From Sediminitomix flava (GTDB lineage: Bacteria > Bacteroidota > Bacteroidia > Cytophagales > Flammeovirgaceae), in the NCBI RefSeq assembly GCF_003149185.1, contig NZ_QGDO01000001.1, positions 434,001-498,000 of the forward strand: 64,000 nt of DNA, written 5' to 3'. Positions 27,351 to 33,129 of this stretch are shown one piece after another (positions within the stretch are counted from its first letter, which is position 1; each line of letters begins with the position of its first letter). Made by a program: the position numbers and the translations under genes. Below the pieces are notes generated by a model. That model worked only from the letters and a program-made list of their open reading frames with translations, did no database searches and was not told where the DNA came from.

Positions 27351-28481
27351 ATGGAAACCGTTTTCAATCCAAACTCAGAGTTAAATCAAGTTGAAGATTT
27401 TTTACCTCTGAAAGGTACAGACCACATCGAATTCTATGTAGGTAACGCAAAACAAGCAGCCTACTTTTATCAATCTGCTTTCGGATTTAAGCTCGTTGCG
27501 TACGCTGGTCCTGAAACAGGTGTGAGAGATAAAGCTTCTTATGTATTAGAACAAGGGAAATTACGATTTGTATTTACGACAGCTATGCACCCCGAATCAG
27601 AAATTTCTGATCATGTAAGAAGACATAGCGATGGTGTGAAAGTTTTAGCACTTTGGGTAGATGATGCTAAAAAGTCTTTCGAAGAAACTGTTAAACGTGG
27701 GGCTACCCCTATCTCTGAACCTGAAATCTATACAGATTCAAATGGTGAAGTAGTTATTTCAGCAATTGCTACTTACGGTGAAACAGTTCATAAGTTTGTA
27801 GAAAGAGAACAATACGATGGTCCTTTCTTACCTGGTTATGAGGCTAGATCATCCACTTTCGAAACAACTCCTGTAGGTTTCAAATATGTTGATCACTGTG
27901 TAGGGAATGTTGAGCTAGGAAGAATGGATGAATGGGTTAAATTCTATGAAGATGTTATGGGATTTAAGCTACTCCTCACTTTTGACGATGAAGACATTTC
28001 GACTGAATATACAGCACTAATGTCTAAAGTTGTGACTAATGGCAATGGTTTTGTAAAATTCCCAATCAATGAACCTGCTGAAGGAAAGAGAAAATCTCAG
28101 ATTGATGAGTATTTAGAATTTTATCACGGAGCTGGTGTGCAACATATTGCTATTGCTACTGACGATATTCTTTTTACTGTGGCTGAACTTCGAAAAAGAG
28201 GTATTGAATTCCTTCACGTACCTAATGAATATTATGAAGATTTAAAGGACCGTGTAGGTGCTATTGATGAAGATATTGAAGCTTTAAAAGACTTGAACAT
28301 CTTGGTTGATAGAGATGAAGAGGGATACCTTCTTCAAATCTTCACAAAACCCGTTGAAGATAGACCAACACTATTCTTCGAGATCATTCAAAGAAAAGGC
28401 GCTAACTCTTTTGGTAAAGGAAACTTCAAAGCATTATTTGAAGCAATTGAAAGAGAACAAGCAAGACGAGGAAATCTGTAA
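27351..28481 (+). CDS. hppD: 4-hydroxyphenylpyruvate dioxygenase
   Basis: 376 residues from the ATG at 27351 (METVFNPNSELNQVEDFLPLKGTDHIEFYVGN, where homologues start). It converts 4-hydroxyphenylpyruvate and O2 into homogentisate and CO2 in tyrosine catabolism, in the cytoplasm. Two VOC domains; the iron triad is visible as His182 (VDHCVGN), His265 (GVQHIAIAT) and Glu344 (LFFEIIQRKG). The C-terminal RKGANSFGKGNFKALFEAIEREQ is the family gate helix region. Homogentisate dioxygenase is not beside it in this window. Own terminator at 28553. Confidence 0.96.
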   Translation: METVFNPNSELNQVEDFLPLKGTDHIEFYVGNAKQAAYFYQSAFGFKLVAYAGPETGVRDKASYVLEQGKLRFVFTTAMHPESEISDHVRRHSDGVKVLALWVDDAKKSFEETVKRGATPISEPEIYTDSNGEVVISAIATYGETVHKFVEREQYDGPFLPGYEARSSTFETTPVGFKYVDHCVGNVELGRMDEWVKFYEDVMGFKLLLTFDDEDISTEYTALMSKVVTNGNGFVKFPINEPAEGKRKSQIDEYLEFYHGAGVQHIAIATDDILFTVAELRKRGIEFLHVPNEYYEDLKDRVGAIDEDIEALKDLNILVDRDEEGYLLQIFTKPVEDRPTLFFEIIQRKGANSFGKGNFKALFEAIEREQARRGNL

Positions 28482-28552
28482 ATTATTTCGGTTACAGTCT
28501 GTAAATACCGAAAAGACTGTGTATGTTTTATATTCATCTGTATTTGAAAAAT

Positions 28553-28581
28553 GGTTCTAGTATCTGCTAGAACCTTTTTTT
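28553..28581 (+). terminator. hppD terminator
   Basis: GGTTCTAG (28553-28560) pairs with CTAGAACC (28567-28574) and is followed by seven T. Confidence 0.9.
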
Positions 28582-28612
28582 ATTCCCTGTATTCTAATTT
28601 CAAATACAAAAA

Positions 28613-28637
28613 AAAGCGACCCAGAAAGGATCGCTTT
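28613..28637 (-). terminator. Terminator of the TonB receptor/DUF4625 unit
   Basis: AAAGCGA arms pair with TCGCTTT (two further C-G pairs inside), followed on the minus strand by a T run. It lies 24 bp after the stop at 28662. Confidence 0.8.
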
Positions 28638-28661
28638 CAAAATTATAAGAATTGATATTTC

Positions 28662-29291
28662 TTACAATTCTTCGTGGTCATGATCGCCATGCTCAATATG
28701 AATATCTTTAAATTCGATAGTTTCGTTACCAAACTCATCAAATACGAAAAGAATAGCGTGATACTCTCCTTCTGGAATCTCTACAACAGAACCATCAACT
28801 GGTAGATCTGCTTCATCTCCTTCCCAAGCTTTACCAGCCATAGCTCCTGTTTTATAGATATATTCAGGGATATCGAAGTGGTAATGCTCTAAGCTCACAC
28901 TTGATGAAGGATTATCGAAAGTTCCAATGAAATCCTCATTCCAACCGAAGTTATCCTCATCCTCATCTGTTGAAGCAGCTGATCTATGGTTATGTCCATG
29001 GTCATGTCCATCAAAGTTCGGGTGGATGTTCAATTTCCATGATACGATATCAGAGTCATCAATTGCTGAGAACTCTAAGATAGCTTCTTCACCTGCATGT
29101 AGCTCTACGTGCTCATGTTCATGGTCTTCAGAACTTGATCTGTGATTATGATCATGTTCTTCATCAGCCATAAAAATCTCGAATTCTGTAACTTCTGGTC
29201 CAGTTTTGTCAACACTGTCCTCAGAATCGTCACATGATGTCATAAATGCAGTAAGTGCAAAAGAAGCAGCAAAAATAATCGACTTTTTCAT
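28662..29291 (-). CDS. His-rich DUF4625-type lipoprotein, putative metal-binding partner of the TonB receptor
   Basis: 209 residues. Lipoprotein signal ending FMTSC (Cys20). The remainder resembles DUF4625: an Ig-like beta sandwich with acidic stretches. Three His-rich clusters stand out: residues 46-61 (HDHNH and HEHEH), 96-102 (HDHGHNH) and near 201-206 (HGDHDH). These are strong candidates for zinc, or perhaps nickel, copper or cobalt, binding. The gene starts 30 bp after the TonB receptor gene and shares its double operator, so it probably receives or buffers the imported metal at the cell envelope. The metal is inferred, not shown. Confidence 0.85.
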   Translation of the reverse strand: MKKSIIFAASFALTAFMTSCDDSEDSVDKTGPEVTEFEIFMADEEHDHNHRSSSEDHEHEHVELHAGEEAILEFSAIDDSDIVSWKLNIHPNFDGHDHGHNHRSAASTDEDEDNFGWNEDFIGTFDNPSSSVSLEHYHFDIPEYIYKTGAMAGKAWEGDEADLPVDGSVVEIPEGEYHAILFVFDEFGNETIEFKDIHIEHGDHDHEEL

Positions 29292-29321
29292 TTGTAAAGA
29301 TTTGTATACTATTAAGTTAAA

Positions 29322-31664
29322 CTAAAACCAAAGGCGAACACTAGCAGTCACATTACGTCCCTGCTCTGGTAGCCCTAATATTCTATATCTACTCAGATGA
29401 TCCATGTAATAGGTATCCAAGAGATTATCTATTCTAAAATTGAAAGATCCATGTAAATGCTCACTCACATCAAAGAAACAGCCCAAGTGTAAATTGACTA
29501 ATTGAAAGCCTTCTGTCATTGGCTCATTTCTGTCTACTCGATCTTGGTCAGCAGTAATTCTGTATTCTAGATTTATAAAAGGTCTATTAAATACACCGAC
29601 ATTACTCTGATACTCATATGAGAGTGTAGTCAAGGTAGAAATAGGAGGAGTAAACGGGAATGCGATAGGTTCTTCCAACCTTCTGTTATATAGATACTCT
29701 CCTACATGTTCTATTTTCCAAGATTGATTAAAGTTGAAGAATGTCTCCCATTCAAAACCTGTATGAATACCATCATCTTGTTTATATTGATAGATTTGAC
29801 CTGCATCAGGTAAATTTGAAGGAGTAGAAGAAGGTGATAAATAAATGTAATTCTTAAATAAGTAGAAGTAAGGACTTAATGTAAGTCCAAATCGCTCATT
29901 CTTAAAGGAAGCGACAAACTCAGCTTGATAACCAATCTCCTCATCTAAATCTGCATTACCCTTTTCATGCCTAAATGTACCATGATGCACTCCATTCATA
30001 GCCAACTCTGGTACATTAGGAGCTCTAAAAGACTTCGCAAAATTCAACTTAAAATCTAGTTCAGAAATAGGCGTATAATTCAGTCCGATGGCATAAGATA
30101 GATTTGAAAAATTCTTCTCCATTGCCTCATTTCTGTACCATGGTTTTTCAGGATCTTCAGGATTTGGGAAAATTTCATCGACATATTCATCCACTTCTAT
30201 TTGAATCAGATCATATCTAATTCCACCATCCAATTTCAGCTTATCAGAAAATGTATAAGCTCCAACCCAAAATGCACCCAACGCATCTTGACGGTAACTT
30301 GGAAGTAGGTGATCAAAACCCATCTCAGTATTTTGCTGATGTTCGCTGCTGATCCCTAAAGACTGTACAAAATTACTCCCCTCTCCGATTACAAGGAGGA
30401 TGTTAGAGGTATATGTCTCTAAATCTAAACCAAGTGCTAAGTATTCGTACTCTCCAAGAGGTCTTCCGTGCCTAGTAGGGTCTGAAAGTTCTCTTCTTTT
30501 ATTTTGCTGATAACCTAAGTCTATATGCAAGTGGTTTTCACCAAGTAAAAACTCTGAATTCAGAATCGTTTTAAAGTGATTTACTTCTTGCCTTGGTACT
30601 TCTGGTGTTCTACTCTTTAAGTCAAAAGTAGACAACCAATTAGAGGAAGGTATTCCGATAGCTCCAGGGAAAAAGCCCGAAATCTGATTATAATTGTTTA
30701 CCGTCAGAGCAATATTTCCCCAACTCTTATCGATACCAAATGTTCCTCCAATATTATATTCACTCCCTGAGGTATTTGCCAATGTTCTGTCTTCAATTGG
30801 AAATCGATAAGTCAGATAGACAAAATCATCTGCAGGAACACGATAATTCCCATAGTCTTGATATGAAGCATTTAGTTTCAAAAACTGATCATTGTTCATC
30901 TTAAGACCAAGGTTAAAAGCCGAACCTATACTTTGGTTATTACTTTTATAAACAGTATTTAGACTTACCTGTAAAGAATCTTCTGGTATTTTCCCTTCTT
31001 CCACATTTATAACTCCTCCCATAGCATCTGAGCCATACAAAAGAGAGGATGCTCCTTTAGCAATCTCAATGCCTTCTACACTCTCTTGGCTAATTGCCAA
31101 TCCGTGATCTGAGCCCCATTGCTGATCCTGTTGCTTAATTCCGTTTGTATTTACAACAATACGGTTAGCCGATAAACCTCGAATAACAGGCTTACTAACT
31201 CCCACACCTACTTTTTGAGTATTAATACCAGCTCGTTGAGCCAATGCATGACCAAGAGTGTTGGCTTGTTGCTTATATAGGTATTCGCTATTTAAATACT
31301 CGGTTACTTTGGACTGCTTGAAAATATCTTCTTTATGTTCTTCAATACTTACTTCATTCAATTCTACTAAAGAAGACTTGAGATAAATATGATAGGCTTG
31401 ACTTTCGGATAAATCAACATCAATAGTTTGACTGATAAAGCCCAATGATGATATTTCAAACTGAAACTTTTCCCCAGTTATGTCATAGAAGTCTACAATA
31501 CCTTCCGCATTTGTAATACCTCCTAACTGATCATCAGCAGATTTTATAGTTGCCCCTATGATTGGCAACATGGTACTTTCCTCTAGTACGTGTAAATGAA
31601 TATCTTGGGCAAAAGAATTTCTAGCCAAAAAGGCTATAATTAATATTAGTAAGTTTCTAACCAT
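29322..31664 (-). CDS. TonB-dependent receptor, putative metal uptake
   Basis: 780 residues from the ATG at 31664. The frame can be extended to a TTG at 31715, but that crosses the promoter and operators. Signal peptide ends NSFA-Q. Residues about 20-105 form a carboxypeptidase-regulatory-like domain (LHVLEESTMLPIIGATIKSA). The plug domain covers about 110-225 (LGHALAQRAGINTQKVGVGVSKPVIRGL, then IEIAKGASSLLYGSDAMGGVINV), and the barrel ends with the strand RNVTASVRLWF. It resembles the cobalamin/siderophore/zinc receptor class more than SusC. Paired downstream with a His-rich lipoprotein and preceded by a 24-bp inverted repeat, so a metal-starvation uptake function (zinc favoured) is inferred. 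Confidence 0.92.
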   Translation of the reverse strand: MVRNLLILIIAFLARNSFAQDIHLHVLEESTMLPIIGATIKSADDQLGGITNAEGIVDFYDITGEKFQFEISSLGFISQTIDVDLSESQAYHIYLKSSLVELNEVSIEEHKEDIFKQSKVTEYLNSEYLYKQQANTLGHALAQRAGINTQKVGVGVSKPVIRGLSANRIVVNTNGIKQQDQQWGSDHGLAISQESVEGIEIAKGASSLLYGSDAMGGVINVEEGKIPEDSLQVSLNTVYKSNNQSIGSAFNLGLKMNNDQFLKLNASYQDYGNYRVPADDFVYLTYRFPIEDRTLANTSGSEYNIGGTFGIDKSWGNIALTVNNYNQISGFFPGAIGIPSSNWLSTFDLKSRTPEVPRQEVNHFKTILNSEFLLGENHLHIDLGYQQNKRRELSDPTRHGRPLGEYEYLALGLDLETYTSNILLVIGEGSNFVQSLGISSEHQQNTEMGFDHLLPSYRQDALGAFWVGAYTFSDKLKLDGGIRYDLIQIEVDEYVDEIFPNPEDPEKPWYRNEAMEKNFSNLSYAIGLNYTPISELDFKLNFAKSFRAPNVPELAMNGVHHGTFRHEKGNADLDEEIGYQAEFVASFKNERFGLTLSPYFYLFKNYIYLSPSSTPSNLPDAGQIYQYKQDDGIHTGFEWETFFNFNQSWKIEHVGEYLYNRRLEEPIAFPFTPPISTLTTLSYEYQSNVGVFNRPFINLEYRITADQDRVDRNEPMTEGFQLVNLHLGCFFDVSEHLHGSFNFRIDNLLDTYYMDHLSRYRILGLPEQGRNVTASVRLWF

Positions 31665-31732
31665 ATTTAAATGCAATACAGTTGCAAACTTAGAAACCAA
31701 ATTCACTATTTGCAACTGTATTGCATTTAAAT
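31665..31732 (-). promoter_or_regulatory. Double operator / 24-bp perfect inverted repeat (putative Zur/Fur-type site)
   Basis: A 24-bp arm at 31665-31688 is repeated inverted at 31709-31732 with a 20-bp spacer, with no mismatch. Each arm itself contains the dyad TGCAA-N5-TTGCA, so there are two operator-like sites facing each other. One ends at the base next to the start codon (31664). In the spacer, TGAATTTG (31698-31705, minus) is one base off the -7 box, so bound dimers would block polymerase. The metal regulator is inferred from the downstream genes. Confidence 0.75.
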
Positions 31733-31814
31733 TGTCTAATAATCACGAACTAAAATGAAAAAAGTTCCTTCTGAATAAGATTTATTTTATATGAAGTTTT
31801 AATATTCTAAATCT

Positions 31815-32273
31815 TTACTTCTTCGAAAAGGATTTATCGTAAGTGTTTATCCAATCTTCTGGAGTAATTTTGCGGACTAGTTCAGCGATCAGATCATATG
31901 GAATATGATCGACTTTTTTAAATCGAATACAGCTTTTCCCCATATCCAATTTGTATTTGCTATGCTTCGGAAATTCTGTTACAAACCAATCCAACAGATC
32001 TGTATCAGCGTAAATTCCCATATGATAAAAACCAATGAAGTTTTTTTGAGAAGCAATATTTAGAAATGGAAGTGGAAGTTCTGGATTGCAATGGTAGCCT
32101 TTAGGGTACAATGAATGAGGCACAACATAACCGATCATTCCATAATTCATTGTTTCTTCAAAGCCTTCTGGTAAGTTTTCAAGAATAACATCTCTTAATT
32201 TCTCAAAAAATTCCTTCCGATCAGATGGAACCTGCTCTAGGTATTCTAAAGGAGTAGCTGCTTCAATTTTCAT
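31815..32273 (-). CDS. DUF1801 domain protein
   Basis: 152 residues. Typical DUF1801 (YdhG-like) features: DRKEFFEKLRDVILENLPEGFEETMNYGMIGYVVPHSLYP near the N-terminus, FLNIASQKNFIGFYHMGIY, and a C-terminal SCIRFKKVDHIPYDLIAELV helix. The family is small, cytoplasmic and of unknown biochemical role. It starts 8 bp after the stop of the VOC gene and is probably co-transcribed with it. Confidence 0.88.
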   Translation of the reverse strand: MKIEAATPLEYLEQVPSDRKEFFEKLRDVILENLPEGFEETMNYGMIGYVVPHSLYPKGYHCNPELPLPFLNIASQKNFIGFYHMGIYADTDLLDWFVTEFPKHSKYKLDMGKSCIRFKKVDHIPYDLIAELVRKITPEDWINTYDKSFSKK

Positions 32274-32281
32274 CTGTATGC

Positions 32282-32695
32282 TTATTTTGTTCTTCCCTCA
32301 ACTAATTTCTCGTATTCAATATCATTTGGCTCCCAAAGCTGAACCTTACTTCCTTCAGAATCCAAAATATGTACAAACTTACCGTAAGGAAATTCCTGTA
32401 TTTCATCTAAGACTTGGACTCCTTCAGATTTTAAAACCTCTACCAATTTCTCTAAATTCTCGACTCTGTAATTGATCATAAAGTCCTTCTCTGAAGGTTC
32501 AAAATACTTCGAATCTTCTTTAAAGGGGCTCCATTGTGAAAAACCTTTCTTTTCTGGTGTATCGGAATTTCGCCATTCAAAGTTTGTCCCATAAGGATCG
32601 GTATCTAAACCAAGATGTGTTTTATACCAATTCTTAGTCTTTTCAGGGTCTTTACACTTGAAAAAAATACCTCCTATACCTGTTACTCTTTTCAT
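32282..32695 (-). CDS. VOC family protein (glyoxalase/dioxygenase-like)
   Basis: 137 residues, one VOC unit pair: GIGGIFFKCKDPEKTKNWYKTHLGLD at the N-terminus and a second beta-alpha-beta-beta-beta half at about 75-130, with FVHILDSEGSKVQLWEPND as the usual end. Metal-binding His/Glu are only partly in place, so the substrate cannot be told. It stands between a small lipoprotein gene (20 bp upstream) and a DUF1801 gene (8 bp downstream), apparently one operon. Confidence 0.88.
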   Translation of the reverse strand: MKRVTGIGGIFFKCKDPEKTKNWYKTHLGLDTDPYGTNFEWRNSDTPEKKGFSQWSPFKEDSKYFEPSEKDFMINYRVENLEKLVEVLKSEGVQVLDEIQEFPYGKFVHILDSEGSKVQLWEPNDIEYEKLVEGRTK

Positions 32696-32715
32696 AAGTT
32701 TTAATGATTATTGAA

Positions 32716-33129
32716 TTACATGTTTCCAATGTAAAAAGGCACATTGTCACGAATAAGGTAATCTCTTCTAAAACCTTGTTTTTTTAGTTTAAGCGTAAGT
32801 GAAGAAACTTCTAAATCACCCTTAAACCCATCGTTACAATCAACGATCATATGCAATCGCTTTAGTTTTCCTTTATCCGTAAAAGTAGATTTAGAGAAGT
32901 CTAGATCAATGTCCTTATCTTTTTTAAAAATTTCTTTCAACTGCTCTAAATCTGATTTTGAGTTTGAGGAGCTCAACACTAAACTAGCTTCATCATCATT
33001 GATTACATATACCAAACTAGATTGAACAGCATCCTTTTCTTCTTCCCCTTTGTTTTTAGCCGATTCGGTAGAACAAGAAGTAATTAGAAGCAAGAATAGA
33101 ATTAGATTAAAGAATAAATAAGATTTCAT
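32716..33129 (-). CDS. Small lipoprotein of unknown function
   Basis: 137 residues with a lipobox LLITSC (Cys19). After a Glu/Lys linker comes a compact alpha-beta domain: DIDLDFSKSTFTDKGKLKRLHMIVDC and GDLEVSSLTLKLKKQGF. The pattern of a short helix, DFS-type strand, KGKL turn and VDC strand recalls the C-terminal repeat of Bacteroidota BlaR1/M56-like membrane peptidases, but this one has no peptidase part. Lies first in the three-gene unit with the VOC and DUF1801 genes. Function unknown. Confidence 0.65.
   Translation of the reverse strand: MKSYLFFNLILFLLLITSCSTESAKNKGEEEKDAVQSSLVYVINDDEASLVLSSSNSKSDLEQLKEIFKKDKDIDLDFSKSTFTDKGKLKRLHMIVDCNDGFKGDLEVSSLTLKLKKQGFRRDYLIRDNVPFYIGNM

Follow-up and report, generated by a model that had tools for sequence, protein, structure and literature searches.

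The question raised by this locus is what role a perfect inverted repeat could play when it lies directly before the start codon of a gene for a TonB-dependent receptor. In the window (the whole stretch of Sediminitomix flava DNA analysed here, 64,000 nucleotides), a repeat search of positions 31300-32100 returned one inverted repeat, with two 24-nt arms at 31665-31688 (near arm) and 31709-31732 (far arm) that are 100% complementary and separated by a spacer of 20 nt; the original prediction had described it correctly, including the dyad within each arm. This dyad, TGCAA-N5-TTGCA, is present in exactly two copies in the 64 kb, one per arm, at 31672-31686 (core TGCAATACAGTTGCA) and 31711-31725 (core TGCAACTGTATTGCA), neither arm being assigned to a strand, and the core centres are 39 bp apart. 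Shuffled versions of the 64-kb sequence contained 0.15 dyads on average and reached two in 1 of 100 shuffles, and the whole genome holds six exact dyads compared to three copies of the pattern read backwards. The near arm directly adjoins the receptor ATG (31664-31662); a longer TTG start in the list of open reading frames (31715) would cross the repeat, and a signal-peptide-like stretch follows directly after the ATG. Judged from sequence, we consider it quite likely that the mirror repeat represents paired operators at which Zur, a zinc-sensing repressor of the Fur family, would bind over the predicted promoter of the receptor gene.

The receptor gene (29322-31664, minus strand) encodes a 780-aa TonB-dependent outer-membrane receptor with Pfam Plug and barrel domains. 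Its best PDB match, and closest relative of solved structure, is ZnuD of Neisseria (4rdr, E 2.5e-21), but it differs from ZnuD in its N-terminal CarboxypepD-like domain and its score against the NCBIfam ZnuD model (130.8 bits) is far under the cut-off of 950, and it was filed as ZnuD-like only. A search of a contig collection with the receptor protein gave nine stretches that matched a pattern, none of them a relative. A gene for a His-rich lipoprotein (28662-29291, minus strand; DUF4625, Pfam PF15418, E 5.5e-13) lies 30 bp 3' of the receptor gene, the two are probably in the same operon, and a terminator-like hairpin with a T run (28612-28638, minus strand) is found 3' of the lipoprotein gene. 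Homologues of the lipoprotein were identified in four other receptor loci (L032, L035, L036 and L037). DUF4625-like His-rich lipoproteins were also observed about 60 bp 3' of a motif site of their own in two genomes, at loci in which no receptor was seen (L075 1575-2153, with an exact site, and L102 1578-2123, with a one-mismatch site). No riboswitch or other known RNA element was matched at gathering score in an Rfam scan of 28000-33000.

To locate further sites in the host genome, a sequence-only model was constructed from 10 sites 5' of homologous receptors in other genomes, aligned with their reverse complements; it contains no host-genome sites, but the dyad that was searched for had first been taken from the host. 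Eleven places were found at E<=10. Each of these matches is weak on its own (E 0.13 to 8.3), so the argument for a zinc regulon rests on their positions, and nine of the 11 are located at seven zinc-type loci (genes were called from open frames by simple rules, without a gene caller). Two of the nine are the operators at the ZnuD-like receptor locus with the 24-bp mirror (C1:465671 and C1:465709), and two, at 37 bp spacing, occupy the interval that separates a Fur-family gene from a TonB receptor gene (C2:723007 and C2:723045). About 4 kb from the latter, one match (C2:719020) precedes a gene row encoding MerC, FolE and two COG0523 proteins, one of which reached 557.3 bits against the ZigA zinc-chaperone model, whose cut-off is 600. 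The other matches are 5' of a MerC protein (C6:219692), 5' of an ABC ATPase and an FtsX-like permease with His-rich stretches (C4:211122), between a TonB receptor gene and a gene that we take to be DUF2480 (C3:840509), and 5' of a small His-rich gene followed by a TonB receptor gene (C3:179125). The two places outside these loci are C4:45390 and C1:918139, the latter in a coding frame that is glycosyltransferase-like by eye. Among control sites, i.e., the first 11 by position of 223 one-mismatch matches in the host, two were outside coding frames and none was beside a regulon homologue.

A dyad shared by several zinc-type genes within one genome, as is expected of a Zur regulon, was thus found. 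It is the motif enrichment before metal-type genes that had been proposed as a check, and the regulon-wide placement of the sites favours the original reading of a zinc regulon under a Zur-type repressor of the Fur family, with the receptor and the His-rich lipoprotein predicted to be under the control of the operators. Zur regulons elsewhere include zinc chaperone GTPases, FolE and the gene of the regulator, and commonly, though not universally, zinc-independent ribosomal-protein paralogues; none of the latter was found among the classified neighbours, which are a part of all neighbours. In their position before TonB receptor genes, zinc chaperone GTPases, FolE and the regulator's own gene, the sites resemble Zur operators of other phyla; the title of a study of the Caulobacter Zur regulon refers to TonB-dependent outer-membrane proteins (PMC4176598). 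They may differ from Zur operators elsewhere in their form, TTGCAAC-N3-GTTGCAA, and in being often paired at 36-40 bp and fused to the Bacteroidota -7 box.

Confinement of the motif to this locus would have counted against the original prediction, but both dyads and pairs recur across genera. In 18 genomes of the same family, the exact dyads summed to 180 compared to 49 for the reversed pattern, with the excess absent in two genomes (2 vs 2 in G014 and 7 vs 6 in G012). Scoring of up to 150 candidates per family genome with the model gave 74 matches at E<=1, of which 69 did not lie in a coding frame and 47 had a homologue of the host's predicted regulon next to them (62 and 40 of 67, respectively, when the seven training places are removed); 27 of the 74 were in a coding frame or had no neighbour from the known set. 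Around zur-like genes, 36 exact dyads were found within about 3 kb, in 34 of the 80 named loci, compared to none for the reversed dyad and a total of eight for 12 anagram dyads (mean 0.67); these loci are the best 80 of 580 and many derive from one order, hence they are non-independent. Thirty of the 36 dyads did not fall in a coding frame; 12 had a recognised homologue next to them, and of the remaining 24, 17 face a small protein that is MerC-like by eye. A keyword search of the open-access literature, which took in few subscription papers and no regulon databases, returned no description of a Zur site in Bacteroidota.

Several other genes were seen repeatedly in these surroundings. MerC-like membrane proteins (L063 4096-4497, L064 3762-4184, and relatives) are among the commonest genes behind sites, and in many Chitinophagales-type loci a MerC-like gene faces an SCO1-like gene (both by eye) near the zur-like gene. 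A small FAD/NAD oxidoreductase (Pyr_redox_2) is beside sites in five genomes (L111 scanned; L136, L151, L156 and L160 by eye) and a membrane acyltransferase (HGSNAT_cat) in two, twice in one of them (L137 scanned; L135 and L143 by eye).

The host genome contains three Fur-family genes (L007, L008 and L009). The paralogue nearest to classical Fur is L007; the similarity is weaker for L008 and L009, whose matches include E. coli Zur and M. tuberculosis FurB. L008 (C2:722629-722928) is our candidate for the regulator because it has two sites of its own (one mismatch each, 62 and 99 bp upstream) and because of its neighbours. Its protein clears the PF01475 cut-off and may be described as Zur-like, short of NCBIfam Zur: it scores 38.4 bits with the NCBIfam Zur model (below the cut-off of 167) and 39.7 bits with the PerR model (cut-off 180), and in the structure ranking Fur 5nbc comes before E. 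coli Zur 4mtd (E 1.3e-7 and 2.1e-6, respectively). The similarity to E. coli Zur is weak, although both belong to the Fur family and two CxxC pairs align. The residues H89, H91, C94, C97, C130 and C133 are invariant in nine aligned Fur-family proteins, and since these metal-ligand residues are common to all nine, they do not discriminate between Zur and Fur. Only 11 of the 80 zur-like genes are preceded by a site with at most one mismatch in the 230 bp before them (reversed control two of 80), which means that autoregulation is not general. Among 19 distinct Fur-like genes in the loci examined, 10 are preceded by such a site at a distance of no more than 200 bp and five have a pair at 37-39 bp spacing, in a set that is biased because many loci were chosen for their sites.

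Alternatively, the protein that binds the sites might be Fur, the iron regulator, or a paralogue of PerR type, in which case the regulon would sense iron, heme or peroxide. Iron regulation is frequent among TonB receptors, the genome offers three Fur-family proteins, of which L008 scores marginally higher with the PerR than with the Zur model, and the top score of the receptor is with a heme-receptor model (TIGR01785, 164.9 bits), above its ZnuD score although below the cut-off of 316.85. We nevertheless regard this as unlikely, because the sites surround the L008 paralogue together with FolE and COG0523 GTPases, whereas no site of up to one mismatch was found within 200 bp upstream of the other two Fur paralogues; it is L007, not L008, that is nearest to classical Fur, and the receptor's best solved relative is ZnuD.

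With a Zur-like repressor as the preferred regulator, the doubling of the operator can be considered. The original prediction regarded it as unusual, a view that did not hold, because pairs are a recurrent layout: exact pairs separated by 5-35 bp were found in 84 of the 390 genomes examined from the order and in 50 of 129 genera (reversed control none of 390), and in the host genome pairs at 37-39 bp are present at three of the seven predicted loci, two of them with one-mismatch sites (39 bp at the receptor locus, 37 bp at the Fur-family gene with one mismatch in each site, and 38 bp at the MerC locus on C6 with one mismatch in the second site). A gap range of equal width, 36-66 bp, gave a match in 22 of the 390 genomes, so close pairs are favoured. 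Among the 75 pairs listed, which are a part of all pairs, the spacing is 36-40 bp in 51, 27-29 bp in 11 and different in 13; G010, G075 and G094:C56, which are simple-repeat-like by eye, were retained in the pair counts. By eye, genus g28 and family f11 show additional spacings near 51-53 and 60-62 bp, and the 60-62 bp pairs resemble divergent promoters in which each operator is fused to a -7 box. Pure helical phasing is a doubtful explanation, since the peaks at 27-29 and 36-40 bp fit one turn while the classes at 51-53 and 60-62 bp (by eye) continue the series poorly. The fixed spacing may reflect the blocking of two sigma contacts, a contact between dimers, or both.

In published work, the Bacteroidota sigma-A -7 box TAnnTTTG sits at -12 to -5 (PMC9723704, PMC6847099). 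At the receptor locus, TAAGTTTG (31692-31685, minus strand) is a full match to TAnnTTTG, its TTTG entering the near operator, and from the published position transcription would be predicted to start near 31680, which leaves a leader of about 16 nt. It has a G at -9, which counts against the candidate, because G is almost never found at this position in F. johnsoniae promoters (PMC6847099). The original prediction had placed a near-consensus -7 box in the spacer, where TGAATTTG (31705-31698, minus strand), probably the box that was meant, is indeed present as a near-match; we judge the operator-fused TAAGTTTG to be the better candidate. The far operator contains a TTG (31713-31715, minus strand) that precedes TAAGTTTG by 20 bp; it is a doubtful candidate for a -33 element, one that the independent promoter test described below did not support. 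With the published box position, the near core would cover approximately -6 to +9 and the far core, at 38 bp spacing, approximately -43 to -29, and because of this core geometry both promoter contacts are read as blocked. The geometry thus agrees with the original placement of one operator over the -7 and start region and the other upstream.

Fusion of operator and -7 box is not restricted to this locus. TAnnTT occurs directly before an inner operator edge (giving TAnnTTTGCAA) in 46 of the 75 listed pairs, and in the 30 pairs with flanks, i.e., those with locus sequence, a fused box was found at 17 of 60 inner edges and one of 60 outer edges (one outer edge is clipped at a contig end). Thirteen of these 17 boxes have a gene within 350 bp ahead, seven of them with a gene on both sides and hence uninformative on direction; six agree clearly in direction, two are without any gene and two are opposite to the only gene. 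Compared to the Bacteroidota sigma-A promoter (TTTG or TAnnTTTG; PMC6847099, PMC9723704), the -7 box is shared and fused at inner edges, but a -33 TTG at constant distance is not seen in other promoters of these genomes. A first count of 162 non-Zur -7 boxes, from loci that are biased and partly homologous, had given a TTG peak at gap 19 (13 matches vs about four per other gap). A second sample of 1.2 Mb, made up of 60 other 20-kb stretches drawn from 13 genomes and containing 864 genes and 108 boxes, no longer showed the peak (three TTG at gap 19 vs a mean of 2.81 at other gaps), and a general -33 TTG element was dropped; the -7 box itself numbered 108 in this sample, compared to 33 and 64 for two control boxes. 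The -33 motif is weak in the F. johnsoniae data as well (PMC6847099).

Orthologues of the receptor gene show how closely operator and gene start can be joined. In nine of nine orthologues (L023-L031) from one genus (g3, probably Flammeovirga), the ATG is in the middle of the operator, as TTGCAATT-ATG-TTGCAA, and in eight of the nine TAnnTTTG is fused to the operator (by eye), from which a nearly leaderless mRNA is predicted, with its first codons set by the operator. In one of them both half-sites are altered in step (TGCGA...TCGCA), which argues that the dyad is the selected unit. Four other homologues (L033, L038, L047 and L048) have one exact upstream site each and L022 a one-mismatch site; no site of up to two mismatches was present in the scanned stretch of L032, L035, L037 and L039-L042, hence the motif is not universal before receptor homologues.

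The perfection of the mirror is a rare local feature. Exact mirroring of the two 15-bp cores was seen in 11 of the 75 listed pairs (mean of 3.06 for shuffled pairing, largest value 10 in 2000). Among the 30 flanked pairs, no other mirror that runs without a break across a perfect core is as long as the 24 bp found here, in which the core is extended by 2 bp inwards and 7 bp outwards; the next longest is 19 bp. A different pair (L183) has imperfect cores, yet 17 mirrored bp in its outer flanks. Since a perfect 24-bp mirror exceeds what two operators need, and since the excess of mirrored cores over shuffled pairing fits local duplication, the arms might mark the termini of a mobile element that has since been lost, or might stem from an inverted duplication that arose by chance. 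We find this highly improbable: dyads are kept before homologous genes across genera and pair spacings are preferred, and a duplication may account for the origin of the second site, not for its retention.

The repeat might also act as RNA, through a hairpin in a read-through transcript that extends up to the start codon and blocks translation. Such a transcript could be supplied by the upstream gene on the same strand (31815-32273), as no terminator-like site was predicted between this gene and the receptor gene. The minus strand of 31640-31760 folds at -40.8 kcal/mol (z -7.45, matched by none of 200 shuffles), and in F. johnsoniae initiation is reduced by structure near the start codon (PMC6847099). 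However, the motif-bearing receptor orthologues have a single dyad, so the operator is the conserved part, and a transcript from the predicted start would be without the far arm, the hairpin mattering for read-through RNA only. We therefore think it very unlikely that the repeat acts primarily in this way; the hairpin could be a side effect at the receptor locus.

For paired Zur operators, the following mode of action is envisaged. When zinc is plentiful, a Zur dimer on the near operator would mask the -7 box together with the start site, while another dimer on the far operator would mask the -33 zone, so that RNA polymerase would be excluded; when zinc is scarce, Zur would be released and the receptor and the His-rich lipoprotein would be produced. 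We tentatively extend this to a more general, and rather doubtful, proposal, in which the Bacteroidota Zur operator and the sigma-A promoter are merged: the near operator might emerge out of the -7 box (TAnnTTTGCAAC), the second dimer might occupy the zone of sigma region 4 at a constant distance, and the spacings of 27-29 and 36-40 bp (51-53 and 60-62 bp in some groups) might reflect promoter geometry beyond dimer contact, with the mirror at this locus possibly adding a hairpin that silences read-through.

As a prediction from genome comparison, these results offer, for a large phylum, an operator of zinc starvation and a set of genes that can be put to the test. The candidate members of its zinc regulon include MerC-like membrane proteins, a His-rich lipoprotein and an FtsX-like ABC transporter. 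The putative operator would be one that is built onto the unusual -7 box of the Bacteroidota.
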